A DNA stretch of 64,000 nt, taken from contig JBFLZD010000002.1 of assembly GCA_040756435.1 (NCBI GenBank), forward strand, positions 1 to 64,000, given 5' to 3'. The position numbers were made by a program, and so were the translations under genes. The notes beneath the pieces are model-generated. The model did not search any database and was not told the DNA's origin. It saw only the letters and a list, made by a program, of their open reading frames with translations. Every line of letters begins with the position of its first letter. Positions within the stretch are counted from its first letter, which is position 1. The DNA comes from Spirochaetota bacterium (GTDB lineage: Bacteria > Spirochaetota > UBA4802 > UB4802). This document shows positions 40,212-57,306 of the stretch, piece after piece.

Positions 40212-40223
40212 GGTTCACACCTT

Positions 40224-42173
40224 TCATGTTTTTTGAAATACTGCATATTCTTCCTTATTTTTAGACAGTGGGAATGTAATGGTAAAAATTGTGCCCTTCC
40301 CTATCTCACTTTGCACATCAATATTACCATGGTATCGTTTAATAATACCATAGGTTACAGCAAGACCAAGCCCGGTACCCTTCCCCTGTTCCTTTGTTGT
40401 GAAGAACGGATCAAATATTTTATCTAAATGATCCTCCTTGATGCCTATTCCAGTATCCGAAACAATGATGGTGATACTATCGTTATGTAAATTATATTGT
40501 GTCTTCACTGTCAATGTGCCTCCCTGTGGCATTGCATCCGCTGCATTCATTGCTAAGTTATTAATAACCGACTTAAACTGATTTTCATCTATATACATAT
40601 CAGGCACATCAGGATCCAGTTCTTTATTAATGACAATATTGTGGAAGTTAACATGCTTCTCAAGAATCAGAAGAACTTCATTTATAAGAATATTTATATT
40701 AGTCCGTTTGATATCAGGTTTTGTTGAACGAGCAAAATCTAAAATATTACGCACTATATCCCTGCATCGTAATGTTTCCTTAATAATTACTCTTAAGTCT
40801 TCCTCAAAATCAGTATCCTTCAAATCTTCCAGTAACAGTGAGCTGTAGGTAAGAATGGCCGTAAGGGGGTTATTTATTTCATGAGCAATGCCTGATGCAA
40901 GTCTTCCAAGTGAGGCTAACTTTTCAGATTGCAATATCTGGTTTTGCGTTTGTTCTTTCAGCTTTCTATCTCTTTCTTTGATTGCATCAATCATCTGGTT
41001 AAATGTATAACACAAATATCCTATCTCATCTTCGCTTTCTATCTCAATGTGTGCGTCATAGTTTCCATTTATAACCGATTCTGAAGCCTTCACCAAAGTG
41101 CGTACAGGCTGAATTATCATGTTTAAAAGATACAGTGAAATCCCCACAGCAACAATTGCAATTAAAATTGTTATCACCGCAAAATTAACCGTTGAACTTG
41201 TCTTAATCTCATCAAATTTTTTTTCAAGTATCCCAACATAAAGAATACCAATGGGCTTATGATATACATTTAATAGTGGCTTATACGCAGATATATACCA
41301 GTTATTAACCACAAATGCTTTATCCCACCAGACCTTTCCCTGCAAAATGACCTTATTGTATACTTCCTCTGAAAGCAGTGTTCCAATTGCTCGTGAACCA
41401 TCAGGCTTTTTTACATTGGTGCATACTCTGACATCATCCAGGAATATTGTTGAAGTACCAACCTCAAGTCCCCCAATCTTTTCATCTTTGAATACCAGTT
41501 CTTTTATCTGGTCTACTATCCCGTTATAATTATTTAAAATCCTTACGCCATAAATAATACCAATAAAATTATTATTATAAAATATGGGGATAGTTGCTCG
41601 TATTGCCAGTGCATCAACAACCTTTGTCCGTTCAACTTTTCTTGATTTAGGAGTTGGTACAATATCAATAATTACTTTTTTGGCTATTACTTCTCCTTCA
41701 CGCTCAAGATGTTTATGGGTAACAATATCTGTTCCCTCACATGGTGCCTTATTTTTTAATACATACGAAATATGGTTATCATCGGAAACATCATCACCAA
41801 ATGAATAATTATTTGCTCGGGCAATCACCTTCCCATGAGCATCCGTAATATTGACAATATCAATTCCCAATTCCTTCTGCACTTCTTTGCATTTATTTAT
41901 TAATACCTGCCGGTTATTATGCATAATTGCCAATTGAATATATTCTAACAGAGCAATATGCTTGAGCATCTTGCTTTTAAGAGCAACTCTGCTATTATAA
42001 ATAAAATCAGCTGTGTCTAAATCCTTCAGTACAGTATCAAATGCCTGCCCAACAACATGTTTTTCAATTGTCCGTATGCCAACAAAGGTTGATGCAATTC
42101 CTGATAAAAGCACAATGGAAAGTATGCTAATAAATAATTTAAACCGTATCTGTGTGGCAAATCGCTTTTTCAT
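40224..42173 (-). CDS. Sensor histidine kinase with periplasmic Cache domain
   Basis: The 649-residue protein has a first membrane helix (about 13-33), a large periplasmic domain (about 35-330, Cache-like with repeated strand-rich segments), and a second helix near 335-355. A HAMP domain (IIQPVRTLVKASESVINGNY) is followed by HisKA with His near residue 430 in GIAHEINNPLTAIL. The HATPase domain has N-box NLAMNAADAM, G1 DTGIGI and G2 GKGTGLGL. It should sense a small ligand or redox cue and pass phosphate to the adjacent receiver (39822-40211). The trigger is not visible. Confidence 0.93.
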   Translation of the reverse strand: MKKRFATQIRFKLFISILSIVLLSGIASTFVGIRTIEKHVVGQAFDTVLKDLDTADFIYNSRVALKSKMLKHIALLEYIQLAIMHNNRQVLINKCKEVQKELGIDIVNITDAHGKVIARANNYSFGDDVSDDNHISYVLKNKAPCEGTDIVTHKHLEREGEVIAKKVIIDIVPTPKSRKVERTKVVDALAIRATIPIFYNNNFIGIIYGVRILNNYNGIVDQIKELVFKDEKIGGLEVGTSTIFLDDVRVCTNVKKPDGSRAIGTLLSEEVYNKVILQGKVWWDKAFVVNNWYISAYKPLLNVYHKPIGILYVGILEKKFDEIKTSSTVNFAVITILIAIVAVGISLYLLNMIIQPVRTLVKASESVINGNYDAHIEIESEDEIGYLCYTFNQMIDAIKERDRKLKEQTQNQILQSEKLASLGRLASGIAHEINNPLTAILTYSSLLLEDLKDTDFEEDLRVIIKETLRCRDIVRNILDFARSTKPDIKRTNINILINEVLLILEKHVNFHNIVINKELDPDVPDMYIDENQFKSVINNLAMNAADAMPQGGTLTVKTQYNLHNDSITIIVSDTGIGIKEDHLDKIFDPFFTTKEQGKGTGLGLAVTYGIIKRYHGNIDVQSEIGKGTIFTITFPLSKNKEEYAVFQKT

Positions 42174-42272
42174 ATTAATATGCTATCATTCATTTAATTC
42201 TATTTAATATAATAAATCATATTGCACATATTTTGCAACCTTTTTATTGATACGTAAGTAAAAATAGAAAAT

Positions 42273-42303
42273 AGCCGGAACATCAGATCCTGACATTCCG
42301 GCT
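42273..42303 (-). terminator. Rho-independent terminator of the hydrogenase operon
   Basis: The perfect hairpin AGCCGGAA...TTCCGGCT has an inner TCAG/CTGA extension. On the minus strand it is followed by ATTTTCTATTTTT, a moderately T-rich tail. It lies about 50 bases beyond the response-regulator stop (42354), at the end of the operon running down from 52713. Confidence 0.7.
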
Positions 42304-42353
42304 TTGCGATTGTAAACAGGTTGTTGTGATACTATATGCACATCACGGTAAAC

Positions 42354-42755
42354 TCATACATATTTTTTGATTTTATCCAGCAACTCATCTATGCGTACCG
42401 GTTTTGTCAAAAAATCATTAATGCCGGGTAGAAATGATTGTTCTTCATTCAGCGAAAATCGTGAGTTGGTTACCTGATTAATTGCAGTCAGCATGATTAT
42501 AGGCACATTTTTTACGTCTTTGTATTTTGAATCCTCCCTGTTGCTTCGTATCTGATATGATATCTCAAAGCCTGCAGTATCAGTCTCCATCATGACGTCT
42601 AAAATCATAAGATCAGGATGATACGATAGTAACTTTTTTAAGCCTTCAGCGCCACTATAGGCAACTTCCACCTCATATCCATTCATGGTCAAAGCCTGTT
42701 TCAGGCTTTCAACCAGGTCTCTATCGTCATCAACTAATAATATTTTTTTTGCCAT
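42354..42755 (-). CDS. Receiver-only response regulator, last gene of the hydrogenase operon
   Basis: The protein (133 residues from the chosen start) is a receiver domain with phosphoacceptor Asp53 in LMILDVMMETD and the conserved Lys in FLTKPVRIDEL. No output domain is present. I prefer the ATG at 42755 (GGAG nine bases upstream) over one at 42776. It follows the hydrogenase small subunit gene by 24 bases. Its role might be to link hydrogenase activity to a phosphorelay, or it may act as a phosphate sink. Confidence 0.9.
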   Translation of the reverse strand: MAKKILLVDDDRDLVESLKQALTMNGYEVEVAYSGAEGLKKLLSYHPDLMILDVMMETDTAGFEISYQIRSNREDSKYKDVKNVPIIMLTAINQVTNSRFSLNEEQSFLPGINDFLTKPVRIDELLDKIKKYV

Positions 42756-42779
42756 TGTGTATACTCCATCTACCAAATT

Positions 42780-43310
42780 TTAATCATAGAGCAGCTGATA
42801 AATGACATTTCTTTCTTCCCATGCCTTCGTTCGCTGATAGATATCTATTGGGAATTCAATCTGCTTCAATTCAATAGGAGCTGCCTTCTTATCCACCAGA
42901 CCTAACGCTAATGCAACACCATAAATAATTGCTTCAGGCCTTGGAGGACAGCCAGGGATAAAATAATTAACCGGTATTGCCTTATCGGCACCACCTGTCA
43001 CATTATAGGTATCAAACCAGCAACCGCCGCCTGTTGCACATGAACCAATCCCAAATACAAGTTTTGGTGATGGCATTGCATCATATGCTTTTTTTACCAA
43101 AGGAAATGTTGGTCTGGTAACAGCACCTGAAATAAGCATTACATCAGCATGCCTGGGTGATGCAACCAGTTTGATACCAAACCGTTCCACATCATAGTAA
43201 GGAGTTAATACATTTAATATTTCTATATCACACCCATTGCACGCACCAGAATTGCAGTGATACACCCACAATGATTTTGGAAATGCCTTCTTTGCTATTT
43301 TACCCAACAT
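42780..43310 (-). CDS. Group 4 [NiFe]-hydrogenase small subunit (NuoB/HyfI-like)
   Basis: The 176-residue protein is the NuoB/HycG/HyfI homologue that carries the proximal [4Fe-4S] cluster. Ligands are visible as Cys24 and Cys27 in GACNGCD, then GSCATGGGC and PGCPPRPE. It has no Tat signal, as expected for a group 4 hydrogenase facing the cytoplasm. It follows the ferredoxin subunit gene by 2 bases, within the ten-gene operon. Confidence 0.94.
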   Translation of the reverse strand: MLGKIAKKAFPKSLWVYHCNSGACNGCDIEILNVLTPYYDVERFGIKLVASPRHADVMLISGAVTRPTFPLVKKAYDAMPSPKLVFGIGSCATGGGCWFDTYNVTGGADKAIPVNYFIPGCPPRPEAIIYGVALALGLVDKKAAPIELKQIEFPIDIYQRTKAWEERNVIYQLLYD

Positions 43311-43312
43311 GG

Positions 43313-43858
43313 CTATTCTCCTATCTTTTCAGGCCTTTTATAGGTCTTAGTTTTTTCATACAATTCTTTGTCAAATGTTTGTGAAGAAACAGGAATGACT
43401 GCCCTCATCACCAAATTATCATACCGGTATCCTAAATATGACAGTTTATCGATAGCATTCTTTATTTCATGATCAAAACATCTCCCACAGCGCTGACATG
43501 TCAGCATAAATAGTTCCATTGTTTCATTAATGTCACGTTTGTCATCAGTTGCCAGTTCATACTGTGATGTCATTGTTATTGCTTTTTCAGGGCACAGGTC
43601 CGCACAACGCCCACAATAGGTACAACGTGAACCATCATACATCATTACCCTGAGTTCATTGCAAAGATCGCGCACAAGTATGGTACGGGCAGGGCAGTGA
43701 TTAGCACATCCGCCACATCCAATACATTTATGATGATCCCAGTATGGCTGACCCCTGTAATTTTCTGGCACAGGATGCGGTTCAAATGGATAGGGCAATG
43801 TTACCGTACCGGGCTTAGTAACTACAAATAGCTGTTTTATTTTACTTGTAAGCCACAC
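43313..43858 (-). CDS. 4Fe-4S ferredoxin subunit (NuoI/HycF-like)
   Basis: The 181-residue protein has two classical [4Fe-4S] motifs, CIGCGGCANHCP and CTYCGRCADLCP. It also has an extra CQRCGRC segment (about residues 118-124) that may bind a further cluster or zinc. It should pass electrons between the soluble modules and the hydrogenase small subunit. Gaps to its neighbours are 24 bases (upstream) and 2 bases (downstream). Confidence 0.93.
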   Translation of the reverse strand: MWLTSKIKQLFVVTKPGTVTLPYPFEPHPVPENYRGQPYWDHHKCIGCGGCANHCPARTILVRDLCNELRVMMYDGSRCTYCGRCADLCPEKAITMTSQYELATDDKRDINETMELFMLTCQRCGRCFDHEIKNAIDKLSYLGYRYDNLVMRAVIPVSSQTFDKELYEKTKTYKRPEKIGE

Positions 43859-43882
43859 GATCGTTCTCCTTAACGTTAAGAT

Positions 43883-44782
43883 TTATATTCCATAAACACT
43901 CAATGCAATGGTACATAATGATATGACAATTAACACTGCATAGTATTTCACTGCCTGGTCAATGCGTAACCGTGGGTTGGTGGATCCCAGTAACGCAATC
44001 AGCACAAAAATCACTGCAACTGCTAAAAGCTGCAAAATTAGGTCAGCAACAAAAATCCCCGTATAGAGAAAAGGCATAAATACCGTTACAAAAAGCACCG
44101 CATAGAACATCTGCTTTAACATCATTGAATATTTAAATAGTGCATAGTTGGGACCGCTGTATTCAATAAACGGGCCCTCCAGTATTTCAACTTCAGCTTC
44201 AGAAATATCAAATGGTTGACGGGCAACAAATGCCTGCAATGCCATAAGATATACTACAAGCATAAGCACCACCGACCATGAATAGCCAGTAGAAAGAATG
44301 CTAAACATGCTGGCATCGATAGCCAGGCTTTTCATCCTTACTGCACCCAGTATAAAAGTCATGGCCAGTATTGGTTCCACCATAATCATGGTTATCATCT
44401 CACGGCTTGCACCAATCATTGCATATGCATTCTTGCTTGATAATGCGCCCAACAATATAGAAATACCTGCTAATGTCAAAAGATATACGATAGTGATGAC
44501 ATCAGCATACTGTGTGAGCATATTAGGCTTGAATCCAATAGGAACTATCGTAACCACTGCTGTTACTGCTGCAAAGGCCATCATTGGTGCCAGCTTGAAT
44601 GCCCAGTTATCACTTACTAAATTATTCTTACCCAAAAGTTTAAGCAAATCCAGGTACGGCTGATAGATAGGTGGGCCCTGCCGTGACTGCACTTTTGCAG
44701 TCAGTTTTCGAATTATACCTTCATATAAGGGTGCTAACCCCAAAAACACTACAATATTGAGTACTATCATGAGAATATCCAT
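43883..44782 (-). CDS. Membrane subunit NuoH/HycD/EchB-like
   Basis: The 299-residue polytopic protein has about eight hydrophobic segments. It contains the family motif GLAPLYEGIIRKLTAKVQSR then GPPIYQPYLDLLKLLGK in the first loop, the conserved SREMITMIMVEP, and RQPFDISEAEVEILEGPFIE. It links the hydrogenase peripheral arm to the membrane and takes part in ion translocation. It fits between the large subunit (12 bases) and the ferredoxin gene. Confidence 0.94.
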   Translation of the reverse strand: MDILMIVLNIVVFLGLAPLYEGIIRKLTAKVQSRQGPPIYQPYLDLLKLLGKNNLVSDNWAFKLAPMMAFAAVTAVVTIVPIGFKPNMLTQYADVITIVYLLTLAGISILLGALSSKNAYAMIGASREMITMIMVEPILAMTFILGAVRMKSLAIDASMFSILSTGYSWSVVLMLVVYLMALQAFVARQPFDISEAEVEILEGPFIEYSGPNYALFKYSMMLKQMFYAVLFVTVFMPFLYTGIFVADLILQLLAVAVIFVLIALLGSTNPRLRIDQAVKYYAVLIVISLCTIALSVYGI

Positions 44783-44794
44783 ATGCCACCTGCC

Positions 44795-46468
44795 TTATAC
44801 TTTTTTGCTTCGTGACAGACGTTCAAGCTCTTCATTGTTAAGTATTGATTGTCTGCCTGTCTTTACGTCAACCAGTGCCATCCTGTCAGTACATGAGAAA
44901 CACGGGTCTATGCTACCAATGATTATTGGTGCATCGGCTAACTGATTATTCAGTAACATCAACGGTACGCCCTGTAAGTTGGGATACGTGGGGGCACGTA
45001 CTCGCCATCGGTCTGCTCTGTTCTCTTCACCAGTAATAAGGTAATGAACGACTTCCCCACGTGGTGCTTCAACAGCAGATATTGAATGAACCAGTGGCTT
45101 AATGGGCTCATCAAATTCATATAACAATGGTTCATCAACAGGCATGTCACGTAACACTTGCCGTATAATCTTTATTGATTCAAATGTTTCAAGGATACGT
45201 ACCAGCACCGTTCCCCATACATCGCAGGTATCAACAACCGGCACATCAAATTGCACTGCATCGTATGCTGCATAGGGATGGTCACGTCGTGTATCAATAT
45301 CCACACCTCGTGCGCGGGCAACTGGCCCAACCAAACTCCATTTTATTGTATCTTCTTTTGAAACATACCCCACACCCTTAGTTCTTCGGTGGATAGCAGT
45401 ATCGCCAACGATTGCATTTTTTATTGCTACAAGCTCTTTCTCCACCTTATCCATGACATTTAAAATATCTTCCTTGTGTGGCAAAATATCACGGCGTACG
45501 CCACCAATAATTATCATCCCATAGGTTTTGCGGTTGCCAGTAATCTTTTCTGCTAACCACATTACCGGTTCACGAACACGCCATGAATGCATGAACACCG
45601 TATCAAATCCAATAAGGTGGCCAGCAACACCTAACCACAATAGATGGGAATGTACCCTTTCAAGCTCTAACATAAATGTACGAATATACTCTGCCTTCCG
45701 GGAAATCTTTATTCCTGCAGCAAGCTCCACCGATTGTGAATACGAGGTAGCATGAACCGATCCACAGATACCACAAATACGCTCTGCAATAAACGGCACT
45801 TCATTATAGGTTACCTGTGTGGTACACAATTTCTCAATGCCACGATGTGTCATAAAACCACGGTAATCACATCCTTTTATTGTTTCACCATCAACATACA
45901 CTGCAAAATGTGCTGGCTCATGTAATGTGGGATGGAATGGTCCAATAGGAACGGTAGTGCACCCTTCAGGAGCTTTATCTAATTGATATGCCACATCTTC
46001 GGCTGCTGGAGGCATTAAATTCCATGGGACTTCCTTACGCAGTGGATAGATACCTTGTGGCCAGTCATCAGCAAGGATGAGCCGTTTTGGCTTTGGATGT
46101 CCTTCAAACTGCATACCAAGTAAGTCCATGTACTCACGCTCCGACCACCCTGCATTAGGGATGTCCGGTGTAATAGAATCAAGAACTGGTTTGTCAGCAG
46201 GAACTTTTGTCCTTAAACAACAGAAGATGTTGTCTTTATCAAAACTGAAAGTATGTACTAACCCCAATGTATTATCACGGGCTATATTATCATATCCTAT
46301 ACTCACCATATAACGGGCGCCCATTGCAATGACTGCATTACATATAGCCCGTATATTCTTTTTATCCACATCAACAAACAACCGTGTTTCAAGTGGTGTT
46401 TCAAAGCCCTTGACAGCGCTTTTAAACTTTTCTTTCAAATCTTTTTTTACTTGGTCTATCGATGGCAT
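44795..46468 (-). CDS. [NiFe]-hydrogenase large subunit, NuoC-NuoD fusion (HycE/HyfG-like)
   Basis: The 557-residue protein joins an N-terminal NuoC-like domain (~1-150) to a NuoD-like catalytic domain (~170-557), as in E. coli HycE/HyfG. All four Ni ligands are present: Cys232 and Cys235 in RICGICGSVHA, and Cys523 and Cys526 in DPCFSCTDR. It is therefore a real H2-active subunit, unlike complex I NuoD or Ehr proteins, which lack them. The chain continues about 30 residues after the second CxxC motif (after the usual DPCxxC...R end), so C-terminal processing is not obvious from the sequence, although a maturation protease is encoded in the operon. Confidence 0.96.
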   Translation of the reverse strand: MPSIDQVKKDLKEKFKSAVKGFETPLETRLFVDVDKKNIRAICNAVIAMGARYMVSIGYDNIARDNTLGLVHTFSFDKDNIFCCLRTKVPADKPVLDSITPDIPNAGWSEREYMDLLGMQFEGHPKPKRLILADDWPQGIYPLRKEVPWNLMPPAAEDVAYQLDKAPEGCTTVPIGPFHPTLHEPAHFAVYVDGETIKGCDYRGFMTHRGIEKLCTTQVTYNEVPFIAERICGICGSVHATSYSQSVELAAGIKISRKAEYIRTFMLELERVHSHLLWLGVAGHLIGFDTVFMHSWRVREPVMWLAEKITGNRKTYGMIIIGGVRRDILPHKEDILNVMDKVEKELVAIKNAIVGDTAIHRRTKGVGYVSKEDTIKWSLVGPVARARGVDIDTRRDHPYAAYDAVQFDVPVVDTCDVWGTVLVRILETFESIKIIRQVLRDMPVDEPLLYEFDEPIKPLVHSISAVEAPRGEVVHYLITGEENRADRWRVRAPTYPNLQGVPLMLLNNQLADAPIIIGSIDPCFSCTDRMALVDVKTGRQSILNNEELERLSRSKKV

Positions 46469-46496
46469 ATCTTACCTCTTATTCCAAAATGTTGTA

Positions 46497-48356
46497 TTAT
46501 TTCACATTACCACCTGTCCACCATAGCATGGACTTTAATGCTGCAAACATGTGTCTGTCCTTATATCTGTTATTATTATTAAGGTCCTGATACCCACACA
46601 ACCATGTTGGCATAACTTTTTCCTGAGAACCCGCACTCTTTTTCACACTATACGCAACTATAAATCCAATAATAACTATTACGATCACCACAAGTGGAAC
46701 AGCAATAGCATTTGCATACTGCATGCCAGGAACATTTATTGTTACACCCATAGCAGATGTAAACACAGCATTGTGTGCCGATAGCTCATTGAATGAAGTC
46801 TGCACTATGGAACCAGTTGAGAACTTAAAAATATTCATTATTGTTTCATAATAAATGAAAGGAACTACCCCCTGAACTATGCAAAGCAGCGCCAGAATGA
46901 CCTTAGGCACAAGCATCTTCCAGGTTACTTCATGAGGTTTGTGTTCAACATTCCATTCTACACCGGCTGAAGCAAATGACATCCCAAAAAATTTTACATA
47001 ACATGCCAGTGTCAATGCGCTGGTAAACAGGGCAATGATGCCAAAGAGGGCAAGGAAGAAAACCTGGCTGCCGCCAAGTAGTGTAGCAGAGATTATTGTC
47101 CACTTACTTGCAAACCCACTGAAAGGAGGAACGCCTGCTATAGACAGTGAAGCAATTCCTGCAATCACTGCGCTGACAGGCATGAATGTAAGCAAACCAC
47201 CTAATTTATTAAGATCCTTTGTACCTGTTTCATATACTATACTGCCTGCGGTAAGAAAGAGTAGTCCTTTAAAGATAGCATGGTTTAATACATGATACAA
47301 TATTCCAATAATGACCAGAAACGACAGCATCTGTACAAACATATTACTGCTGTGGTACATGTACAGGCCAGCTCCAATAGCCAGAACAATGTATCCAATC
47401 TGGCCAATGGAGCTGTAAGCAAGCAGGCGTTTAGCATCGCTCTGCTTTAAAGACTGGGAGGTGCCAATAAATAACGTCACTACACCAAACGTCGCAATTA
47501 TACTTCCCCATATTAAAGGATTAACAGTATGACCTTCATGTGGAATCATCCAGAAGAATGTTCTAACTATGCCATAAATACCCGTTTTAATCATGACACC
47601 ACTCAACAGTGCACTCACCGGTGAAGGAGCAATAGAGTGCGCGTCAGGCAACCATAACTGCCCAAACGGGAATACGCCAGCTTTAAAGCTGAAACCAAGC
47701 AAAAGCAGGGCATACACCACCGGAATCATTCCTCCAGTAGCGCCAAGTTTTTGCGTTAATGTATGAATTGAATCACCCATAACCGAACCACTGATAAGGA
47801 ATGCACCAACAACTATAAAAAGCCATGCCAATTCCATAAGGATTAAATATTTATTTGCATTGCGCACATTCTGCTTTTCTTTATATTCAAATCGAATCAG
47901 AAAATATGATGCTATTGTCATAAGCTGCCATGCTACTGTGAATCCAATACTCAAATCATCAACGGTTACTATGCCAATCATACCCAGAATGAACAGTGGG
48001 AAGTTTATGTAATAGGGTTTAAGTGAGTAGTCCTTATAATGTTCCATATAATCAATAGAATACAGTGCGCTCATTACTGCCATAAAGGAAATAATGGCAA
48101 TGAAGAATCCTGAAAACGCATCTATAAGAAAATAGACTGGCACAGTACCAAAATATATTGCCTGTGTTTCTGCTGCCTTTTGTACAAAGATTGCCACATA
48201 TGCAATATACAACAATAATCCTGCTGCAATTGCCACTGCAATCGTGTTTATCCAGCCTGCTAATTTTCTTTTTGAAGCTAAAAGCGGTACAATGATACTT
48301 GCACCAAGCAATATAGCAAAAGCCTGTAATAACATTCCATAAAGATCAATGTTCAT
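46497..48356 (-). CDS. Proton-conducting membrane subunit (HyfB/HycC/MrpD-like)
   Basis: The 619-residue polytopic protein belongs to the NuoL/NuoN/MrpA/MrpD antiporter family. Key segments are FKAGVFPFGQLWLPDAHSIA (Lys and Asp of the ion path), SPVSALLSGVMIKTGIYGI, and LNHAIFKGLLFLTAGS. It is the single NuoL-type subunit of the complex and should move H+ or Na+. I choose ATG 48356 (AGGAGT seven bases upstream); a GTG at 48362 is a possible alternative. It overlaps the maturation protease gene by 11 bases. Confidence 0.93.
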   Translation of the reverse strand: MNIDLYGMLLQAFAILLGASIIVPLLASKRKLAGWINTIAVAIAAGLLLYIAYVAIFVQKAAETQAIYFGTVPVYFLIDAFSGFFIAIISFMAVMSALYSIDYMEHYKDYSLKPYYINFPLFILGMIGIVTVDDLSIGFTVAWQLMTIASYFLIRFEYKEKQNVRNANKYLILMELAWLFIVVGAFLISGSVMGDSIHTLTQKLGATGGMIPVVYALLLLGFSFKAGVFPFGQLWLPDAHSIAPSPVSALLSGVMIKTGIYGIVRTFFWMIPHEGHTVNPLIWGSIIATFGVVTLFIGTSQSLKQSDAKRLLAYSSIGQIGYIVLAIGAGLYMYHSSNMFVQMLSFLVIIGILYHVLNHAIFKGLLFLTAGSIVYETGTKDLNKLGGLLTFMPVSAVIAGIASLSIAGVPPFSGFASKWTIISATLLGGSQVFFLALFGIIALFTSALTLACYVKFFGMSFASAGVEWNVEHKPHEVTWKMLVPKVILALLCIVQGVVPFIYYETIMNIFKFSTGSIVQTSFNELSAHNAVFTSAMGVTINVPGMQYANAIAVPLVVIVIVIIGFIVAYSVKKSAGSQEKVMPTWLCGYQDLNNNNRYKDRHMFAALKSMLWWTGGNVK

Positions 48357-48849
48357 ACACACACTCCTTTTGGTTGCTCATAATTGAGGATTGAACCATA
48401 CTAACTATTGAATCAACTTTATCCAGTATTATGGGCGATAGTCCCTTTCCAAAATCATTATGCTTGATAACTATCCCAAGCATGTATACATCTTTACCAG
48501 ATGCTTCCAGTATTTTACATGACATCCGTAATGCCAATTTATGCGTTGATACATCTAATCCCGTTTCAACAAAATCACTGAGTTTTCCAAAAACAACCGT
48601 GCCTTCTTCTGCGTCAGCTTCTATAGCATCAATGATCAACACATTTTTACAATTTGACTGGGCAATCGCAAACACATAACTTTCAATGACATCTTCTACA
48701 TTAAATATGACCACATGAGACTGCACAACTTTAGCTGCCAGAGTATCAACAATGTACAGCCCTACTGCATCATCACCTCTATAGTAATTGCCTACTCCAA
48801 CAATGCAGGTTGTATCCTTAAAAATATTTTCCAGCGTCGCCAACCTCAT
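48346..48849 (-). CDS. Hydrogenase maturation protease (M52 family)
   Basis: The 167-residue protein has the signature VGVGNYYRGDDAVGLY (about residues 17-32), with the Asp that binds Ni in precursor large subunits, and the central VLIIDAIEAD. M52 enzymes cleave the C-terminus of the large subunit after Ni insertion. It overlaps the neighbouring HyfB-like gene by 11 bases and the HyhG-like gene by 4, so it is embedded in the operon. Confidence 0.94.
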   Translation of the reverse strand: MRLATLENIFKDTTCIVGVGNYYRGDDAVGLYIVDTLAAKVVQSHVVIFNVEDVIESYVFAIAQSNCKNVLIIDAIEADAEEGTVVFGKLSDFVETGLDVSTHKLALRMSCKILEASGKDVYMLGIVIKHNDFGKGLSPIILDKVDSIVSMVQSSIMSNQKECVYEH

Positions 48850-49679
48850 ATCTGCTCACCTAAGGTTTTAATCTGCCTGTAAGTATATACTGGGCCATCA
48901 GTGCACACCAGGGTTCTCCCGATGGCACAGTGCTGACACTTTCCCACGCCGCACTTCATATGCCTCTCTAACGTTGAGATTATCATGTCATCCTTAATTC
49001 CACGCTGCATAAGTTCTTTTATAACAGCATTAAACATCACCGGTGGGCCACACACAAATGCCACGGTATTTTCTACAGGTATCTCTACCTTATCAAACAG
49101 TGTTGTGATAATACCCACGTTGCCTTTCCATTCAGGCGTGCCATTATCAACTGTAATAAATGTTTCAAACCCTTCAATTTTCTGCCACTGTTCTAACATA
49201 TACTGATACATTAAATCCTGTGGTGAACGTGATCCATATAAAAGCAGTATACGACCAAAATCATTACGGTGCTGCAATACATGGACTATTGATGACCGTA
49301 AAGGAATAAGTCCAATACCACCAGCAACATAGATAACATTTTTTCCTTTTATTTCTTCAAATGGGAACCCATTGCCAAATGGTCCACGTATTCCCACTTT
49401 ATCACCAACCTGAAGATCATGTAACGCATTGGTTACCTTACCTATTCGCCGCACAGTTATATGAAAACGGTCATTTTCAGGGCTGGGTGGAAGCGATACT
49501 GCAAATTCACCTGCACCAAATACCGTACACATAATAAACTGACCTGATTTAAACGTAAAATTGCCATCAATTTCCTTATTATCAAACCTCAGATAAAAGG
49601 TTTTTACATCAACAATCTCATCTTTAATTTCTTCAATTGTGGCAATTTCTGGGACTGTTACTATCTTCTGTTCGCTCAT
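48846..49679 (-). CDS. FAD/NAD(P)-binding [2Fe-2S] reductase (HyhG/AsrB-like)
   Basis: The protein (277 residues from the chosen start) has an FAD-binding barrel (EFAVSLPPSPENDRFHITVR), an NAD(P)-binding domain (YVAGGIGLIPLRS, VCGPPVMFNAV), and a C-terminal [2Fe-2S] motif, CGVGKCQHCAIG...VC. This matches the gamma subunit of sulfhydrogenases and related reductases. It should connect NAD(P)H with the Fe-S chain of HyhB. Which pyridine nucleotide is used is not visible. ATG 49679 has AGGTG upstream; a GTG at 49688 is an alternative. Confidence 0.93.
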   Translation of the reverse strand: MSEQKIVTVPEIATIEEIKDEIVDVKTFYLRFDNKEIDGNFTFKSGQFIMCTVFGAGEFAVSLPPSPENDRFHITVRRIGKVTNALHDLQVGDKVGIRGPFGNGFPFEEIKGKNVIYVAGGIGLIPLRSSIVHVLQHRNDFGRILLLYGSRSPQDLMYQYMLEQWQKIEGFETFITVDNGTPEWKGNVGIITTLFDKVEIPVENTVAFVCGPPVMFNAVIKELMQRGIKDDMIISTLERHMKCGVGKCQHCAIGRTLVCTDGPVYTYRQIKTLGEQI

Positions 49680-49688
49680 AGTTATCAC

Positions 49689-50741
49689 CTATTCATGAAT
49701 TTCTCTTCGGATATATGTAACCACATTGGGTAACCCTATATCGCCAGGACATACCCATGCGCAGCGCCCGCATCCAACACATCCTGGCCGCAGGTATTTC
49801 TTTGACTGTGAGTATGACAGTTTACAGAAAAATCGCTTGTTTCTTCGGTCTTCTATTGGTTTCCGTGGATTATGACCTCCTGCCATTCTGGAATATCCTT
49901 CGTATGAACATGAATCCCATGTTCGCAAGCGCTCAGTATTCCCTGCTATAGTATTGGCGTCATTTATGTTAAAACAGGTACAGGTGGGACACACATACGA
50001 ACATGCACCACACTCAATACACTGGTTTCCAATATACTCCCATACTTCTTCTTTGATGAATCCTGTTGTTACACGGTTCATCACCCGTGATACCCATGCC
50101 TTTGACTCAGTTGCAATATCCTCAAACATGGTGATCGATTTTTCTACAAGCTTCTGTTTTTGCGTTACATGTTCTTGTGTGGCTTTGGGGAAGTTGAATG
50201 ATTCAATAAATGCCTTGCCTTTTTCACTGCCAACTTCAAGCAAGTAACTATCGCCCAAATCCGTAAGATTTAAATCATACCCTTCCTGTGCAGCAGGACC
50301 GCTGTCAGTACATACACAAAAACACTGCTTGAACGGAACAACACAGGTATTGGCTACTATGAACATGCGGCTTCGGTGATGGCGATAGACCTCATCAACA
50401 AATTCTTGACCTAAGAAAAACCTATCAATACACTGTAAGCCCGTTAAATCACATGAACGCAATCCAAACAGTGCCTTTGGCACATCATCAAAGACCATTG
50501 CGATGTCCGCCTTCTTCGCATTTTTATCATATTTATACTGCATGATTGTTTCTAAATGAGGAAACACCACATGCTTTGGTGGATTGGCAGGGATAGGTGC
50601 ATTCAGATCAATGTTGTCTGCACTTACTTTATCAAAGAAACACTGCCCAAATGCCTCATCTAAATAGGGTCCATACAACGTATACTTTTCTTCTAAGGCC
50701 TTTGCAATTTTTTTTACATCATTTTTTTTAATCAGATACAT
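49689..50741 (-). CDS. Dicluster 4Fe-4S electron-transfer protein (HyhB/AsrA-like)
   Basis: The protein (350 residues from the chosen start) resembles the beta subunit of sulfhydrogenases and anaerobic sulfite reductase A. The N-terminal domain has ALFGLRSCDLTGLQCIDRF. Two cluster motifs lie in the C-terminal half, CIECGACSYVCPTCTC and CVGCGRCAWVCPGD. It should shuttle electrons between the HyhG-like flavoprotein and the rest of the complex. ATG 50741 (AAGGTG upstream) starts one base after the molybdopterin subunit stop; an upstream alternative would overlap that gene by about 60 bases. Confidence 0.93.
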   Translation of the reverse strand: MYLIKKNDVKKIAKALEEKYTLYGPYLDEAFGQCFFDKVSADNIDLNAPIPANPPKHVVFPHLETIMQYKYDKNAKKADIAMVFDDVPKALFGLRSCDLTGLQCIDRFFLGQEFVDEVYRHHRSRMFIVANTCVVPFKQCFCVCTDSGPAAQEGYDLNLTDLGDSYLLEVGSEKGKAFIESFNFPKATQEHVTQKQKLVEKSITMFEDIATESKAWVSRVMNRVTTGFIKEEVWEYIGNQCIECGACSYVCPTCTCFNINDANTIAGNTERLRTWDSCSYEGYSRMAGGHNPRKPIEDRRNKRFFCKLSYSQSKKYLRPGCVGCGRCAWVCPGDIGLPNVVTYIRREIHE

Positions 50742-50742
50742 A

Positions 50743-52713
50743 TCACACCTTCTCAATTCGTACTGGGATAGTTGCTTCTTCGCCCTGTGACACAATGTCA
50801 CTATATGCTAATAAAAATGATGCAATCCCCTCTCTGATAAAATAGGGGACATACGCTGTGCCAGGTGCCACATCATCTGAAATCATAACCATTGCTTTCA
50901 TGCTTGCTTTTTCGGCTACAACCTTTACCGGCCAGCGGTCACGCACTCCTATCTGCTTTGCATCTTCAGGTGCTATGGCCACATACCCATCTGGATACAA
51001 CAGCAACGTGGCATTATATTCACGCAGTGGAATAAACGTCTTATGCATGATATTGTTCTGATGCCAGTAATGCTGTGCTTTACCCAGCATAAGTAGATAC
51101 GGATATTCCTGTGTTGCCTGCACAGCTGCATAGGGCTTGTGTGGGAGCACAAATGAAACTTTTTCAGGCACACAGTATTTTGTACCATCATGATTTTTTT
51201 TGGTGCACGGCCACTGCACCCCATGTTTTTTGGAAAGCAATGTATAGCTTATTCCTTCATAAGCAGGAGTAAGGGAAGCTATCTCATCCATTACATCTGA
51301 TGCACTCTTATAATTAAATGGAATGCTCTTTGCCTCTGCAATTGCATCTATAAGCTTCCACATTGGCATCACATCAAATGCAGGAGCGCACTTCTGGGAT
51401 GCAAGCTGAACACGTCGCTCAGTATTGGTAAATGTGCCATCAGTTTCAATATATGTTGTGATGGGCAATACAACATGAGCAAAATCTACAACCTTATTGG
51501 TAAATGCCCCAATATAAGCAACAAAAGGCAATGACTTCAAACGGTCTGCATATTTGACAATGCCATCATCATGATCAACAATCACCAGAGCTTTGAGTGG
51601 TGATGAGCTATCGGACAGAAGTTGTTCAACGGTCTTCCCTTTAAATGTAGGTAATTCCTGTCCCCATTTTTTTTCAAATTTCTTTTTACTGGTTGCATCA
51701 TCAATGCTCTGGTAACCTGTCAGTAAATCCGGAGCACATCCCATATCAAAGCTCCCCTGTAAATTGTTTATACCAGCAATAGGATTTACTCCACAACCTT
51801 CTTTGCCAATCTTGCCTGCAAGCGCAAACAGGTTATAAATTGATGCAACAGTATCATAGCTTAATCCTGAAATACCTGAGGAAAAAAATACCGCAGCACT
51901 TTTTGCCTTAATCAGCCGCTCTGCTACAAAAGCTACCTCAGCTGGCAATACCCCTGTTTCCTTTTCTATTGAATCAAACGGTACAGTTGCTAAATACTTT
52001 TTATATTCTTCATAATGTGCCGATTTTGTATCTCCCCACTGTTGTTTATCTATATAGTACGCAATTGCATCAAAAACCATCCGCATTGTTCCAGGCTTAC
52101 AATTAATAAACTTTTTGGAAAGCTTTGCAATCTTTGTCATGCGGCTGTCGATAGTAATTAGCAGCGATCCACTCCGTGCAGCATAATGCAACTCACTACC
52201 AATGATAGGATTCTGAGTGGTTATATCCATCCCTGCTACAATAAGCACTTCAGCTTTTCGTATGTCCTCAAGCGATCCCAACATACCTGCAAATCCTGTG
52301 CCGTTATACAAAACATCTAAGCTGTTACGATGACCTGATTCTGCTTGAAGGCTTATGTTGTTTGTTTTAAAAACTAAACGGGCCAATTTCATCAGTGCAA
52401 AATTGTCCTCATTGGATGAACGTGGCGAGGCATAAAATGCAATCTCTTCAGGCTTATACAGCGATAATGCCGAAACAAGCTTGGCAATAGCATCTTTATA
52501 ACTAACCTGGCCACTATCTTTAACATACGGCCTGATAATCCGTTCCTGTGTACTCAATAACTCATGGATATTCCATCCTCGTACACATAACCTGCCCTTA
52601 CTTACTGGATGTACCCGCGATGGGAAAACTCCCTGTACAGATGTGCCATCTACTTTGAGATAGTGGCCACATCCTGTTCCACAAAAGGTGCATACACCTG
52701 GCATATAACTCAT
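50743..52713 (-). CDS. Formate dehydrogenase alpha-like molybdopterin oxidoreductase lacking catalytic residues
   Basis: The 656-residue protein has the FdhA/FdhF layout: [4Fe-4S] ligands Cys8, Cys11, Cys15 and Cys43, then the molybdopterin-binding domains and a C-terminal MGD-binding domain with VAPGTAYVPYF. In an ungapped alignment to E. coli FdhF from memory, TNNVDCCARVUHG falls on TNNISLQAESGHR. The catalytic Sec/Cys is Gly127 (GGT codon, 52333-52335) while the next His is kept. In VNPIAGINNLQGSFDMG the catalytic Arg position is Ala313. It should not oxidise formate in the usual way. It may bind a cofactor structurally, like NuoG, or another substrate. First gene of the operon; GAGG upstream. 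Confidence 0.88.
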   Translation of the reverse strand: MSYMPGVCTFCGTGCGHYLKVDGTSVQGVFPSRVHPVSKGRLCVRGWNIHELLSTQERIIRPYVKDSGQVSYKDAIAKLVSALSLYKPEEIAFYASPRSSNEDNFALMKLARLVFKTNNISLQAESGHRNSLDVLYNGTGFAGMLGSLEDIRKAEVLIVAGMDITTQNPIIGSELHYAARSGSLLITIDSRMTKIAKLSKKFINCKPGTMRMVFDAIAYYIDKQQWGDTKSAHYEEYKKYLATVPFDSIEKETGVLPAEVAFVAERLIKAKSAAVFFSSGISGLSYDTVASIYNLFALAGKIGKEGCGVNPIAGINNLQGSFDMGCAPDLLTGYQSIDDATSKKKFEKKWGQELPTFKGKTVEQLLSDSSSPLKALVIVDHDDGIVKYADRLKSLPFVAYIGAFTNKVVDFAHVVLPITTYIETDGTFTNTERRVQLASQKCAPAFDVMPMWKLIDAIAEAKSIPFNYKSASDVMDEIASLTPAYEGISYTLLSKKHGVQWPCTKKNHDGTKYCVPEKVSFVLPHKPYAAVQATQEYPYLLMLGKAQHYWHQNNIMHKTFIPLREYNATLLLYPDGYVAIAPEDAKQIGVRDRWPVKVVAEKASMKAMVMISDDVAPGTAYVPYFIREGIASFLLAYSDIVSQGEEATIPVRIEKV

Positions 52714-52911
52714 AGATTATCCTCACTAACCATAATGAAATTCAAAATCATACAGTACTGTGCTACCATAATGTTTTCTTATTCAATTACTATGATGAAT
52801 ATGGCACATTATAAGGATATTGTAAATAGGGGATTTTCTTATTTTTGTTATAGGGGAATTTACTTATGCGATTATGTATATATTGTTTATTTTATTTTTT
52901 ATATTTTACTA

Positions 52912-55764
52912 TCATTCAGTCCGATTTTGTTTTACCCACTCTATTGCATATTGCAAAAGTTCCTGTGATGATTCTACGTGTAGTTTCATCTTAATCTTTT
53001 CTCGTACATTTTCAACAGTTTTAACACTAATATGTAATTTTTGAGCAATGTGCTTGTTGCCCAGACCATGCCCTATTAACTGAAATATCTCAAATTCACG
53101 ATTTGTAAGCGCTTCCACCGGACTCTCTATTTTTCCCTTTTCTGATAAGGATTGCACCATCTGTTCCTTCATTTCAGTAGAAAGATACACATCCCCCTTT
53201 AACACCGTATAGATGGCCTGTATAATCTTATCCGGTGCTTCCTGCTTCATGAGATACCCACGCGCACCAGCTTTAATAGCTCGCTCTGCATATAACTTTT
53301 CATCATACATGGAAAGCACAAGTGCTGGCAGTTTAGGGAAACGCTGTTTCAACGCTTTAACCAGTTCAATGCCACTTGTCCCGTTTAATGAAATATCCAC
53401 AATAATGCAATCAGGAACTTTACGGTTAACTACATCTATTGCTTCATCCGCTGATGTAGCCTGGCCTATTACCTCTAGATTTTTCTGCGTATTAATAAGC
53501 TGTTGCAAACCCTGTCGCACAATAGGATGGTCATCAACAATAACAACCGTATATTTTTTACCTGTCTTAGGTTTTTCTATAATGGACTTCTGAGGCCCTT
53601 TCTGAATAATACATTGCACCAGCGTTCCGCCACTTTTGTTATTCTGCACCTGAAACGACGCATTAATAATCCATGCTCTGTACTGCATGATATGCATTCC
53701 CATTCCTTTTGCCAGATCAACTTCATCCGGGATGCCTTTGCCATCATCCATAATCTTTACATAATAATATGCATTATCTTCAGATATTGTGATAGCAATG
53801 TTTTTTGGACTGGCATGTTTCACAGCATTGTTTAATGCTTCACGGATAATGTAATACACATGTACTGTATCGATTGCTTCGTCAATGTTACTTGTAATAT
53901 TCCATTCTAAGATGGCTTTGATAGCAAAGTTTTTATTAATATCAGCAATCATTTCCTGCAACGATGAATACAATCCTTTGTTGGTTAAATCCACCGGGCT
54001 TAAACCTCGTGCAATGAGCCGCGTCTGCTCAATAGCCTGATGTACCATGTTCTGTATCTCAACAATTTCATCAGCTTCCTGAGGATAATCATTTTTTATC
54101 TTAAGCCTGAGCATTTCTGTTTTGAATATTAACCCTGCCAGATGCTGACCCAATCCATCATGTAAATCGCGTGCTATGCGGTTTCGTTCTTCCAAGTTTG
54201 CCTGAAGTATCTTTCTTTCAAGCTGCTTTTTTTCAGTTATATCAATTCCTATAAACATGAAATAATCAAATTCATTATTGCTGTATACCGGCCGTGCATG
54301 CCACTGAACAATTTTTTCTTCACCACTCTTTGTATTGATAGGGCTTTCAAAAATGCGTGTTGTTCTGGTCCTCTTCATTGTTGACAACTGATTACGGAAT
54401 GACTTTTGCCCAACATCTGGAATAAAAATATCACAGCATGTTTTACCCAGTACCTGACTTAGCAAGTACCCTGTAGCCTGTAACATGGCTTTATTGCAGG
54501 TGAGAATGTTCCCTTCCTCATTTAACGTGATAAAATATGCAGGAGCAATATCCTCTAAATTCTGGATAATATCCAGGCCTTTTTTTAGTTTTTCCTTTGT
54601 GCGCTTCACATCGGTGAGATCTCGCGCAATAATTGAACAGCCAATAACACTATCGTGCTCATCAAGAAGCGGGGAGATAGTCATTGATAGATTGTGTATC
54701 GTACCCTTTTTATCCAGCCCTTCTGTTTCATAATGATCTATCGCCTCATTGTTTTTAATTAGTAGTAGCAATTGGTCAAATTCATCAGGCCTGTATGGGG
54801 GCGATAGTATACTGATATCACATCCTACCACCTCATCAAGTGCATAGCCAAAAATATGCTGCGCAGCTTTGTTCCAGCTAGCAATTTTGCCATCAAGTGT
54901 AATACCAATTATTGCATCATCAGAGTTGTCCAGTACAATTGATAATTGATTGCGCACATGTTCAATGTGTTTTCGCTCAGTGATATCTCGGGCAACACTC
55001 AGTACAGCATTTTCATTTAAATAATAAATGATAGTGCTCACAATCTCCACAGGGATGGTGTTGCCGTTTCTATCAACAAATGAGGTTTCATAGGAATCAG
55101 TATTTTCATCAATTGAACGCAAATAGTGATGTATCCTGTCACTATCCCCTTCTGCCGTTAACTGTTGTAGTGTCATTAGCATCATGGCATCATATGAAAA
55201 ACCTAAACGTTCACAGGTAGTATTATTTACTTCCAATATTTTCCCATCACGTTTATGAATAATAACCATATCCGAAATGCTATTAAACAAAGATTTGTAG
55301 CGCATCTGCGACGCCAAAAGTTCACTGGTGCGCTGTAATACAATATCCTCAAGCAGGTCTTTTTCTTTGCGCAGCATATCCTCGGCATGTTTTATGCGCA
55401 TCATTGCATTAATCTGCGCAATGAGTTCAGCCTGATCAACAGGCTTGGTTAAAAATGCATCGGCCCCTAATTTTAAACCTTTGACTTTGCTCTGGGTATC
55501 AGTATGGATAGCGGTAAGAAATATAACAGGGATATGGCGCGTCTTAGGATTGTTTTTTAAAATCTGGCATACTTCATAGCCATCCATCTCGGGCATCTTA
55601 ATATCAAGTATAATAACATCAGGATTGTGCTCTTCTGCTTTTTCTATACCTTCCTTTCCGGATTGTGCAGTAACAACCTCACAGTTGGCAATCAGGTTCT
55701 TCAGAAGTGCGGTAATACTTACCAGATTATCTTTTTTATCATCTATGACTAAAATTGTGTTCAT
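52912..55764 (-). CDS. REC-PAS-PAS-PAS-histidine kinase-REC-LuxR HTH fusion protein
   Basis: This protein (950 residues from the chosen start) fuses a whole phosphorelay. Receiver 1 (about 1-120, Asp54 in VIILDIKMPEMDG) is followed by three PAS domains (~160-525). The NarX-type HisKA_3 has His near 545 in RNRIARDLHDGLGQHLAGL, and the HATPase follows (~640-735). Receiver 2 (~750-865, with CIIVDISLNGTSG) and a LuxR HTH (~885-945, LTNREFEIFQLIGHGLGNK then HIAQKLHISVKTVENVREK) form the output. It lies next to the hydrogenase operon, but regulation of it is only inferred. Its ATG at 55764 overlaps the stop of the upstream kinase gene (ATGA). Confidence 0.92.
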   Translation of the reverse strand: MNTILVIDDKKDNLVSITALLKNLIANCEVVTAQSGKEGIEKAEEHNPDVIILDIKMPEMDGYEVCQILKNNPKTRHIPVIFLTAIHTDTQSKVKGLKLGADAFLTKPVDQAELIAQINAMMRIKHAEDMLRKEKDLLEDIVLQRTSELLASQMRYKSLFNSISDMVIIHKRDGKILEVNNTTCERLGFSYDAMMLMTLQQLTAEGDSDRIHHYLRSIDENTDSYETSFVDRNGNTIPVEIVSTIIYYLNENAVLSVARDITERKHIEHVRNQLSIVLDNSDDAIIGITLDGKIASWNKAAQHIFGYALDEVVGCDISILSPPYRPDEFDQLLLLIKNNEAIDHYETEGLDKKGTIHNLSMTISPLLDEHDSVIGCSIIARDLTDVKRTKEKLKKGLDIIQNLEDIAPAYFITLNEEGNILTCNKAMLQATGYLLSQVLGKTCCDIFIPDVGQKSFRNQLSTMKRTRTTRIFESPINTKSGEEKIVQWHARPVYSNNEFDYFMFIGIDITEKKQLERKILQANLEERNRIARDLHDGLGQHLAGLIFKTEMLRLKIKNDYPQEADEIVEIQNMVHQAIEQTRLIARGLSPVDLTNKGLYSSLQEMIADINKNFAIKAILEWNITSNIDEAIDTVHVYYIIREALNNAVKHASPKNIAITISEDNAYYYVKIMDDGKGIPDEVDLAKGMGMHIMQYRAWIINASFQVQNNKSGGTLVQCIIQKGPQKSIIEKPKTGKKYTVVIVDDHPIVRQGLQQLINTQKNLEVIGQATSADEAIDVVNRKVPDCIIVDISLNGTSGIELVKALKQRFPKLPALVLSMYDEKLYAERAIKAGARGYLMKQEAPDKIIQAIYTVLKGDVYLSTEMKEQMVQSLSEKGKIESPVEALTNREFEIFQLIGHGLGNKHIAQKLHISVKTVENVREKIKMKLHVESSQELLQYAIEWVKQNRTE

Positions 55765-56816
55765 TCCGTAACCCAACGCTGAACTTTTAACACAAATTCT
55801 TCAATGGCAAACGGTTTTTGAATAAAATCATCACAGCCGGATGCCATGATGATTCCTCTTTCATCTTTTAATGAAGAAGCTGATACAATAATCACCGGTA
55901 TATGGCCAGTTTGTTGATTCCCTTTTAGTTGCTTGACCACCTCCAACCCATACACATCAGGTAGTGATAAATCAAGCAATATACATGCTGGTTTTATATC
56001 CTGGGCAAGTTTCAATCCTTCATGACCGCTATGTGTTTCAACTATGTCATACAATTTGGACAAAAGAGCCTTAACCACCACTATGCTATCAGGATCATCA
56101 TCAATAACAAGAATTGTTTTACGTTGCCGCTTGGTTACTTCATGTTCTTTTTGTAACGGTAGCCGCACGGTAAACGTTGACCCCTTGCCAAGCTGGCTTT
56201 CAACAGCTATGGTACCCCCTAATAGTGTAACAAGCCTGGCAACGATGGTAAGTCCAAGTCCGGTGCCAGGATATTTTGACGATAGTGACCCCGAAGCCCT
56301 GGTAAATCCGGTAAACAACGTATCTAAATACTCACTGCGGATTCCAATGCCGGTATCAGCAATACTGACTACACCGTGTCCATCTTTTTTATATGCCGAT
56401 ATTGTTATACTTCCTTCTTCAGTGAATTTAACCGCATTATCAATGAGATTTTCACATACCTGATACAGGCGAGACTCATCAGTAGCCAGTATAATATCAT
56501 CGCAGTGCATATGCAATTGCAATCCCTTTTTGCGGATGACTCCTTCATAGCGTTCACACACATCATGTAACACGGAAGCTATCGATACATTTGTTACAGA
56601 CAATTGTATACCACTATCAATTTCAAACACTTCAATAAGATCATTAATAAGGGCCAGAAGTTTTTGACCATTACGTTCAATAATTTCTAAATACTCTTTT
56701 TCTTCAAGGGTAAGGCGGCTATCAGCCTGCATAAGCAAAACTTTTGATAGCGTTAAAATTGAGTTTAACGGTGATTTCAATTCATGGCTTATGCTGTGTA
56801 AAAACTCTTTATTCAT
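55761..56816 (-). CDS. Histidine kinase-receiver protein without sensor domain
   Basis: The 351-residue protein opens directly with the phosphoacceptor motif (His11 in SISHELKSPLNSI). The HATPase domain follows (NLIDNAVKF, DTGIGI, GTGLGL, ending ~225), then a receiver domain (~230-345, ACILLDLSLPD). Having no sensor region, it needs input from a partner. The upstream 165-residue protein overlaps it by eight bases and the downstream fusion protein by four, so the three are a tight operon. Confidence 0.92.
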   Translation of the reverse strand: MNKEFLHSISHELKSPLNSILTLSKVLLMQADSRLTLEEKEYLEIIERNGQKLLALINDLIEVFEIDSGIQLSVTNVSIASVLHDVCERYEGVIRKKGLQLHMHCDDIILATDESRLYQVCENLIDNAVKFTEEGSITISAYKKDGHGVVSIADTGIGIRSEYLDTLFTGFTRASGSLSSKYPGTGLGLTIVARLVTLLGGTIAVESQLGKGSTFTVRLPLQKEHEVTKRQRKTILVIDDDPDSIVVVKALLSKLYDIVETHSGHEGLKLAQDIKPACILLDLSLPDVYGLEVVKQLKGNQQTGHIPVIIVSASSLKDERGIIMASGCDDFIQKPFAIEEFVLKVQRWVTE

Positions 56817-57306
56817 GAGCCTTTTGCGCTACATTCATTTTTAATAGATACGCAATATTAAAAAGATTGGTAATGCCCCCTACAAAGCGTTCCTTGATCA
56901 TGCCTTTAGGCAAACTATCAACTTTAAGGTGATATTCCTCTAATCGGTTCTGTATTGTGGCAACAATGTTTGATAGCTCATCATGGGGTAATTTTTGCTT
57001 TAAATACTCCATTTGCTCATTGACAGCCTGGGCACTGAAAAACATCTTTCTAAAAGCATCTTTAATATCATGAGGAAAACCTATAATCAATTTTTCTACT
57101 AAACAGATCCTTGCCAACTGATATCCCAGCTGAACATCCTGGCAGCTCCTATTTGAAAAGCAATCAGGAAAACGCTCCAAATATGCGCTGCCTAATGCTA
57201 TCATCTCTTCAATATCAAAATCAAAGTTGCCATCACAGGCAATGATATCGTTTCTAAATTCGTCTAAATTCTTTGATTTGATAAAATACTCAGCTGGCTT
57301 TGCCAT
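56809..57306 (-). CDS. Hypothetical helical protein, first gene of the phosphorelay operon
   Basis: The 165-residue protein is all helical by appearance and has no signal peptide or membrane segment. I do not recognise it. Cysteines in ERFPDCFSNRSCQDVQ and LARICLVEKL are of note but form no known motif. Since the following kinase lacks a sensor, this protein is a candidate input module, or a sigma/anti-sigma-like partner. A GCGATAGTT repeat lies 28 bases upstream of the ATG. Confidence 0.6.
   Translation of the reverse strand: MAKPAEYFIKSKNLDEFRNDIIACDGNFDFDIEEMIALGSAYLERFPDCFSNRSCQDVQLGYQLARICLVEKLIIGFPHDIKDAFRKMFFSAQAVNEQMEYLKQKLPHDELSNIVATIQNRLEEYHLKVDSLPKGMIKERFVGGITNLFNIAYLLKMNVAQKAHE

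Follow-up and report, generated by a model that had tools for sequence, protein, structure and literature searches.

The NarX/NarL and NarQ/NarP systems pair a HisKA_3 kinase with a NarL-type regulator composed of a receiver (REC) and a GerE helix-turn-helix; NarX/NarL consists of two proteins, and its target is nitrate respiration. FhlA is a sigma-54, formate-binding activator dedicated to the formate-linked group-4 hydrogenase (formate hydrogenlyase) of E. coli. The characterised analogues in which kinase, receiver and DNA-binding domain share one chain are the HTCSs of Bacteroides, membrane proteins with a periplasmic sensor and an AraC-type helix-turn-helix (PMC11253607). Kinase-like proteins can also act as phosphotransferases: ChpT is unable to use ATP (PMC3433190), and PhyT moves phosphate between receiver proteins via a conserved histidine (PMC5898713).

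Here we report the architecture, conservation, synteny and promoter footprint of a fused kinase-regulator encoded in a 64,000-nucleotide stretch from a Spirochaetota bacterium (positions 1 to 64,000 of contig JBFLZD010000002.1; hereafter the window). We propose, with a probability of about 0.62, that the fusion is a dedicated DNA-binding switch of the adjacent FdhF-like/group-4 NiFe hydrogenase operon, gated by a receiver and supplied with phosphate by two routes. No description of this architecture, or of the regulation of this operon, was found in the open-access literature.

Domain architecture of the fusion protein

The fusion gene and the domains that it encodes are as follows.

52912..55764, minus strand: fusion gene (P0001), 950 aa, REC1-PAS-PAS-PAS-HisKA_3-HATPase_c-REC2-GerE (Pfam and ORF reading)
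55411..55755, minus strand: REC1, residues 4-118 (Pfam and alignment of 16 homologues)
54226..55314, minus strand: three PAS domains, approximately residues 151-268, 277-382 and 407-513
53605..54189, minus strand: kinase core, HisKA_3 526-593 with phospho-acceptor His535, and HATPase_c 632-720
53200..53550, minus strand: REC2, residues 739-855, NarL type, phospho-acceptor D790
52945..53112, minus strand: GerE/LuxR-type helix-turn-helix, residues 885-940

The original prediction of a 950-residue protein at these coordinates, with a receiver, three PAS domains, a NarX-type kinase, a second receiver and a LuxR helix-turn-helix, was borne out by a Pfam search in which two Response_reg, three PAS, HisKA_3, HATPase_c and GerE all scored above the curated cut-offs. 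The frame is intact on the minus strand, with no internal stops in its translation; it starts with ATG at 55764, and an alternative in-frame TTG at 55776 would give 954 aa. The NCBIfam models NarL, MctR, NarQ and NarX match the C-terminal parts of the protein in order, below their equivalog cut-offs. No membrane segment was predicted, indicating a soluble protein. No HPt domain was present among the Pfam matches, and because of this the term phosphorelay is inexact for the window protein and its description as a whole phosphorelay was overstated. Full-length structure prediction recovered the domains only (pTM 0.35), and their packing was therefore left uninterpreted.

Judged by its predicted domains, the window protein fuses a kinase and a regulator of the NarX/NarL type and bears one more receiver at its N terminus. 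Unlike NarX/NarL it forms one chain, lacks the NarX-type periplasmic sensor and membrane segment, carries three PAS domains besides the added receiver, and has a hydrogenase as its predicted target.

Relatives and rarity of the fusion

The fused protein is encoded in one open frame in 16 genomes of the same Spirochaetota order, namely the window and 15 others. Four other genomes of the window's genus encode the whole fusion at 77-93% identity, a further four (G036, G039, G040 and G042) do so at ~42% identity, and seven (G038, G029, G006, G043, G008, G035 and G017) encode a shorter form with a single PAS domain. The whole-architecture relatives that bear names are uncultured Spirochaetota MAGs, for example Spirochaetia bacterium UBA2205, UBA5763 and UBA5550. 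In a tree of the REC2-HTH region all 16 fused proteins formed one clade (support 91/93). G040 encodes a second HisKA_3-REC-HTH fusion (L057 8316-10910, 865 aa; no N-terminal REC detected); it was placed outside the hydrogenase-linked clade on a long, uncertain branch, and no genes of this hydrogenase operon were found in its 20-kb locus.

A frameshift or misassembly joining two genes, the outcome that would have undone the original prediction, has practically no chance of being correct: nothing was found in its favour, and 16 separately assembled genomes, across the genus and 11 more distant members down to 41% identity, keep the single frame, thereby ruling it out. Single-frame fusions were also sought on plasmids, where the three candidates inspected proved to be separate genes.

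The fusion was also said to be rare. Stop-free HisKA_3...GerE frames in a sample of 198 Spirochaetota genomes were confined to this order (cut-off 1e-62), and none were detected in 118 Bacteroidota or 150 Pseudomonadota genomes (cut-off 1e-42); these counts are lower bounds, since the scans examine only the best candidates of each genome. In Chloroflexota, six HisKA_3-to-GerE proteins were found in 4 of 151 genomes, again as a lower bound, with one further example in an Anaerolineae genome. The claim of rarity is partly supported by these scans. The Chloroflexota proteins (L187-L192, HisKA_3-HATPase-REC-GerE) correspond to the C-terminal half of the window fusion in one frame, at 27-30% identity, and no N-terminal receiver was detected in them.

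A conserved cassette upstream of the fusion

Two further genes precede the fusion.

55761..56816, minus strand: HK2, hybrid kinase HisKA-HATPase-REC, 351 aa, no sensor domain; 4-bp overlap with the fusion gene
56809..57306, minus strand: 165-aa all-helical protein, family unassigned, first gene of the cassette; 8-bp overlap with the HK2 gene

The overlaps make the fusion the third gene of a cassette, whose order (165-aa gene, hybrid HisKA kinase, fusion) is conserved across the fusion genomes (n=16; partial in G042, where the 165-aa gene lies at the edge of a different contig and the order rests on HK2 and fusion). In several relatives HK2 is a membrane-type protein of ~980 aa that bears Cache-HAMP-GAF sensors; the version found in the window genus has been shortened to 351 aa and begins at the H-box.

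The 165-aa family is present in 29 of the 46 genomes of the order. In family f5 its gene directly precedes this hydrogenase operon although HK2 and fusion are both absent, so that its association with the operon does not depend on the kinases. AlphaFold2 gave a confident all-helical model (pLDDT 93) for which the PDB held no significant fold match, and the protein had no Pfam or NCBIfam match. An assignment as HPt was rejected, as the alignment lacks an invariant histidine. The family conserves IPxGMxKERFxGGIxxxxN near the C terminus and is often found at hydrogenase operons of the order; second copies elsewhere adjoin unrelated genes (for example L149, next to cysteine synthase).

Conservation of the active sites

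The REC1 residues D8, D9, D54, T84 and K107 are invariant in 16/16 homologues, as are the DHp histidine His535 and the REC2 phospho-acceptor D790. In the window genus the HisKA_3 and HATPase_c domains have intact H, N, G1 and G2 boxes, with all catalytic residues in place. Among the other homologues, the G1/G2 boxes are lost in L042-L045 and L051 (5/16) and the second acid of the REC2 pocket in L042-L045, L050 and L052 (6/16), such that ATP boxes or acid pocket are degenerate in 7 of the 16. Degeneration is combined in L042-L045, where the REC2 pocket reads DA or DS in place of DD and the ATPase domain retains 24% identity to the window genus, compared to 46% for the DHp domain, with the H-box and its His535 kept. 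The HK2 proteins of L042-L044 have also lost their N, G1 and G2 boxes while retaining the histidine (the HK2 of L045 is cut by a contig end, and the box count therefore covers L042-L044).

By this alignment the conserved parts of the fusion are REC1, the DHp histidine and the DNA-binding domain. The invariance of the REC1 site, set against damage to ATP boxes or REC2 pocket in seven homologues, suggests that input in trans via REC1 is essential; self-contained signalling looks not to be. The window protein, with its catalytic residues intact, might signal entirely within itself or its dimer as originally proposed, but such an ability is not conserved across the homologues.

The hydrogenase operon as presumed target

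Downstream of the fusion lie an operon and, at its end, three signalling genes.

42780..52713, minus strand: presumed target operon, FdhF-like, HydB-like, HydG-like, HycI, HyfB, HyfG/E-like large subunit, HyfC, HyfH and HyfI
39822..42776, minus strand: REC-only protein, membrane sCache-HAMP-HisKA kinase and REC-only protein, at the end of the hydrogenase operon

The large subunit carries the NiFe motifs RICGIC and DPCFSC. The start of the FdhF-like gene (52713) is separated from the fusion gene by 198 bases, exactly as originally noted. The FdhF-like molybdopterin protein (50743-52713) has its N-terminal Fe4S4 cysteines; the Cys/Sec-His motif is absent from the formate dehydrogenase position, which reads SGHRN, and formate dehydrogenase activity is on this ground doubtful.

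The fusion cassette and the same operon lie ~6 kb apart or less in 13 of the 16 genomes. In G006 and G043 the operon is on a different contig from the fusion, and in G017, which has the cassette and is 89% complete, no hydrogenase match was found. None of the three proteins encoded at the end of the operon contains a DNA-binding domain, and the fusion is the sole protein with one among the regulators of the locus (Pfam). In L042-L044 an sCache-HAMP kinase lies ahead of the 165-aa gene within a single gene run. Similar RECs and kinase also follow the operon in genus g12 and other lineages without the fusion, and in L045, L046 and L051 a HisKA kinase is joined to the last REC in one protein.

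In g12 the regulator at the head of this operon is a free protein of the NarL type, from a different subfamily; this shows independently that regulators of this type are employed there. These g12 proteins were rejected as the direct unfused ancestor by the tree, in which they form a separate clade with f6 regulators (99/98); their recognition helix differs from that of the fusion, which likewise speaks against direct ancestry.

A predicted operator overlapping the hydrogenase promoter

Upstream of the FdhF-like gene, the genus alignment contains a strongly conserved block with the following predicted elements.

52850..52858, minus strand: second half-site TTCCCCTAT, 24 bp upstream of the first
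52821..52833, minus strand: proposed operator TCCCCTATTTACA, 107 bases upstream of the start codon of the FdhF-like gene
52798..52803, minus strand: predicted extended -10, TG followed by CATATT, 17 bp downstream of the -35 and invariant in the five genus members

The last six bases of the operator, TTTACA (52826-52821), form the predicted -35. The TCCCCTATTTACA site returns upstream of the FdhF-like gene in lineages where the surrounding intergenic DNA has diverged, and in L042-L045 a near-palindrome resembling ATAGGGGAATTCCCCTAT stands in place of the second half-site. With a matrix built with the tested lineage left out, a footprint overlapping the predicted -35 was found at 14 of the 15 hydrogenase loci from fusion genomes and at 0 of 10 loci from fusion-less f5 and g12 (Fisher p = 3.4e-6, a value that is too small because the test ignores relatedness among the genomes; counted by lineage, 8 with it and 1 with a weak site stand against 2 without). 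All g12 hydrogenase loci lacked the TCCCCTATTTACA footprint, and G043 and G006 carry it even though their fusion sits on another contig. The recognition helix, SVKTVENxREKIK, is common to the fused homologues with small changes among them.

Within the 3.6-Mb window genome the core CCCCTATTTACA has a single exact match, at the FdhF-like promoter, and the second half-site accompanied none of the 14 sites with one mismatch to the core. The site has two mismatches in G035 and is weak (TCCCCTCTCGACA) in G008, where both fusion and operon are present. A two-mismatch copy of the operator, TCCCTTATTTACT, lies at 30457-30469 of the window upstream of an ExbB/MotA-like gene (29715-30323) and is probably due to chance. 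In two congeners, L038 (7850-8400) and L040 (10870-11738), coding remnants that read as AbrB-type and PIN-type (toxin-antitoxin-like) lie between fusion and FdhF-like gene; the footprint adjoining the FdhF-like gene is intact despite them.

The placement of the half-sites relative to the -35 suggests a class-II-like activator. A sigma-54 promoter before the operon was rejected, as a search of the fusion genomes around the FdhF-like start gave no -24/-12 element. The fusion would resemble FhlA as a dedicated activator at a group-4 hydrogenase but differs from it in this respect. Autoregulation via the same site was also rejected, with no convincing extra site near the cassette in the 20-kb loci. 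The link between fusion and hydrogenase operon is well supported, and the suggestion that the one may regulate the other is upheld by the conserved synteny and by a footprint that tracks the fusion.

Discussion

We propose a model in which the fusion, a NarX/NarL-type kinase-regulator to which an input receiver has been added, is soluble and probably acts as a dimer. In one route, the PAS-controlled HisKA_3 kinase would phosphorylate REC2 in cis, within the dimer; given the degenerate kinase boxes in 5/16 homologues and REC2 pockets in 6/16, this route would not be universal. In the other, the co-transcribed HK2, the sCache-HAMP kinase at the operon tail, or both, would phosphorylate REC1, which would then gate the central module. 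Phosphorylated REC2 would free the helix-turn-helix to bind the operator and the half-site upstream of it, beside the hydrogenase -35, with activation the most likely output. What we infer here is which way phosphate moves, which kinase feeds REC1, that the output is activation and not repression, and the signal. As in the HTCSs, two DNA-binding domains would be held together by a dimeric kinase, which presumably makes masking by REC necessary. From the predicted domains, it is the GerE helix-turn-helix and soluble form that set the fusion apart from the HTCSs, and so does its N-terminal input receiver, a domain that the account in PMC11253607 does not describe for HTCSs.

Could the protein instead work alone, with REC1 vestigial or structural and with PAS sensing, autophosphorylation and transfer to its own REC2 in the manner of a soluble Bacteroides HTCS? 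The intact catalytic residues of kinase, REC2 and helix-turn-helix in the window genus would allow it, and both the Chloroflexota fusions without a detected REC1 and the HTCSs themselves (PMC11253607) offer precedent, but an active site in REC1 that never varies, while ATP boxes or REC2 pocket are damaged in 7/16, makes this unlikely, as do the overlap of a kinase gene with the fusion gene and the conserved cassette order. The fusion is probably fed with phosphate by partner kinases. Another reading is that it regulates something else and that the hydrogenase footprint, which could be bound by a factor encoded elsewhere, belongs to that factor. The cassette of G017 without a detected hydrogenase and the lack of a good site in G008 fit such a reading; we nevertheless hold it to be rather unlikely, since footprint and fusion associate across lineages, also when unlinked, and no other DNA-binding protein occurs among the regulators of the locus.

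The DHp histidine is kept where ATP binding has been lost, recalling ChpT and PhyT, and we therefore leave open, as quite unlikely, a complete one-chain relay ending on DNA in which a partner kinase would feed REC1, the DHp histidine would serve as HPt and the L042-L045 module would be a pure phosphotransferase. A built-in linear order from REC1-D54 to His535 (HPt-like, in the ChpT/Spo0B/PhyT manner) to REC2-D790, with the first phosphate from the sCache-HAMP kinase or HK2, would accord with the diverged ATPase and retained H-box of L042-L045, with the HK2 proteins of that clade, which kept their histidine after losing the ATP boxes (complete HK2: L042-L044), and with ChpT and PhyT as kinase-like DHp domains that carry phosphate from REC to REC (PMC3433190, PMC5898713). 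ChpT shares with L042-L045 a degenerate ATPase domain, but the window protein keeps its ATP boxes, and both ChpT and PhyT are separate proteins, whereas the fusion carries both receivers. The window's own kinase looks intact, the REC2 of L042-L045 is one pocket acid short, and His535 could be conserved for structural reasons or for a phosphatase function; we thus find this linear order quite unlikely.

Taken together, the retention of REC1, His535 and D790 against losses in kinase and REC2 pocket, and the position of the fusion as sole DNA-binding protein among the regulators, lead us to conclude, from sequence comparison, that the fusion would be the common output, REC1 its conserved input in trans, and its own kinase a second, lineage-dependent input. 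This is a proposed control system for a formate/hydrogen-metabolism operon of uncultured spirochaetes, for which no published regulator was found in the open-access literature, and it is built on a compact soluble signalling protein for which sequence supplies a predicted operator, a presumed target operon and candidate partner kinases. Gating by an additional receiver can thereby be tested for a fused kinase-regulator in vitro on a defined DNA site, and the natural series of intact kinase, degraded kinase and altered REC2 bears on why cells fuse two-component systems and how constant activity is avoided.
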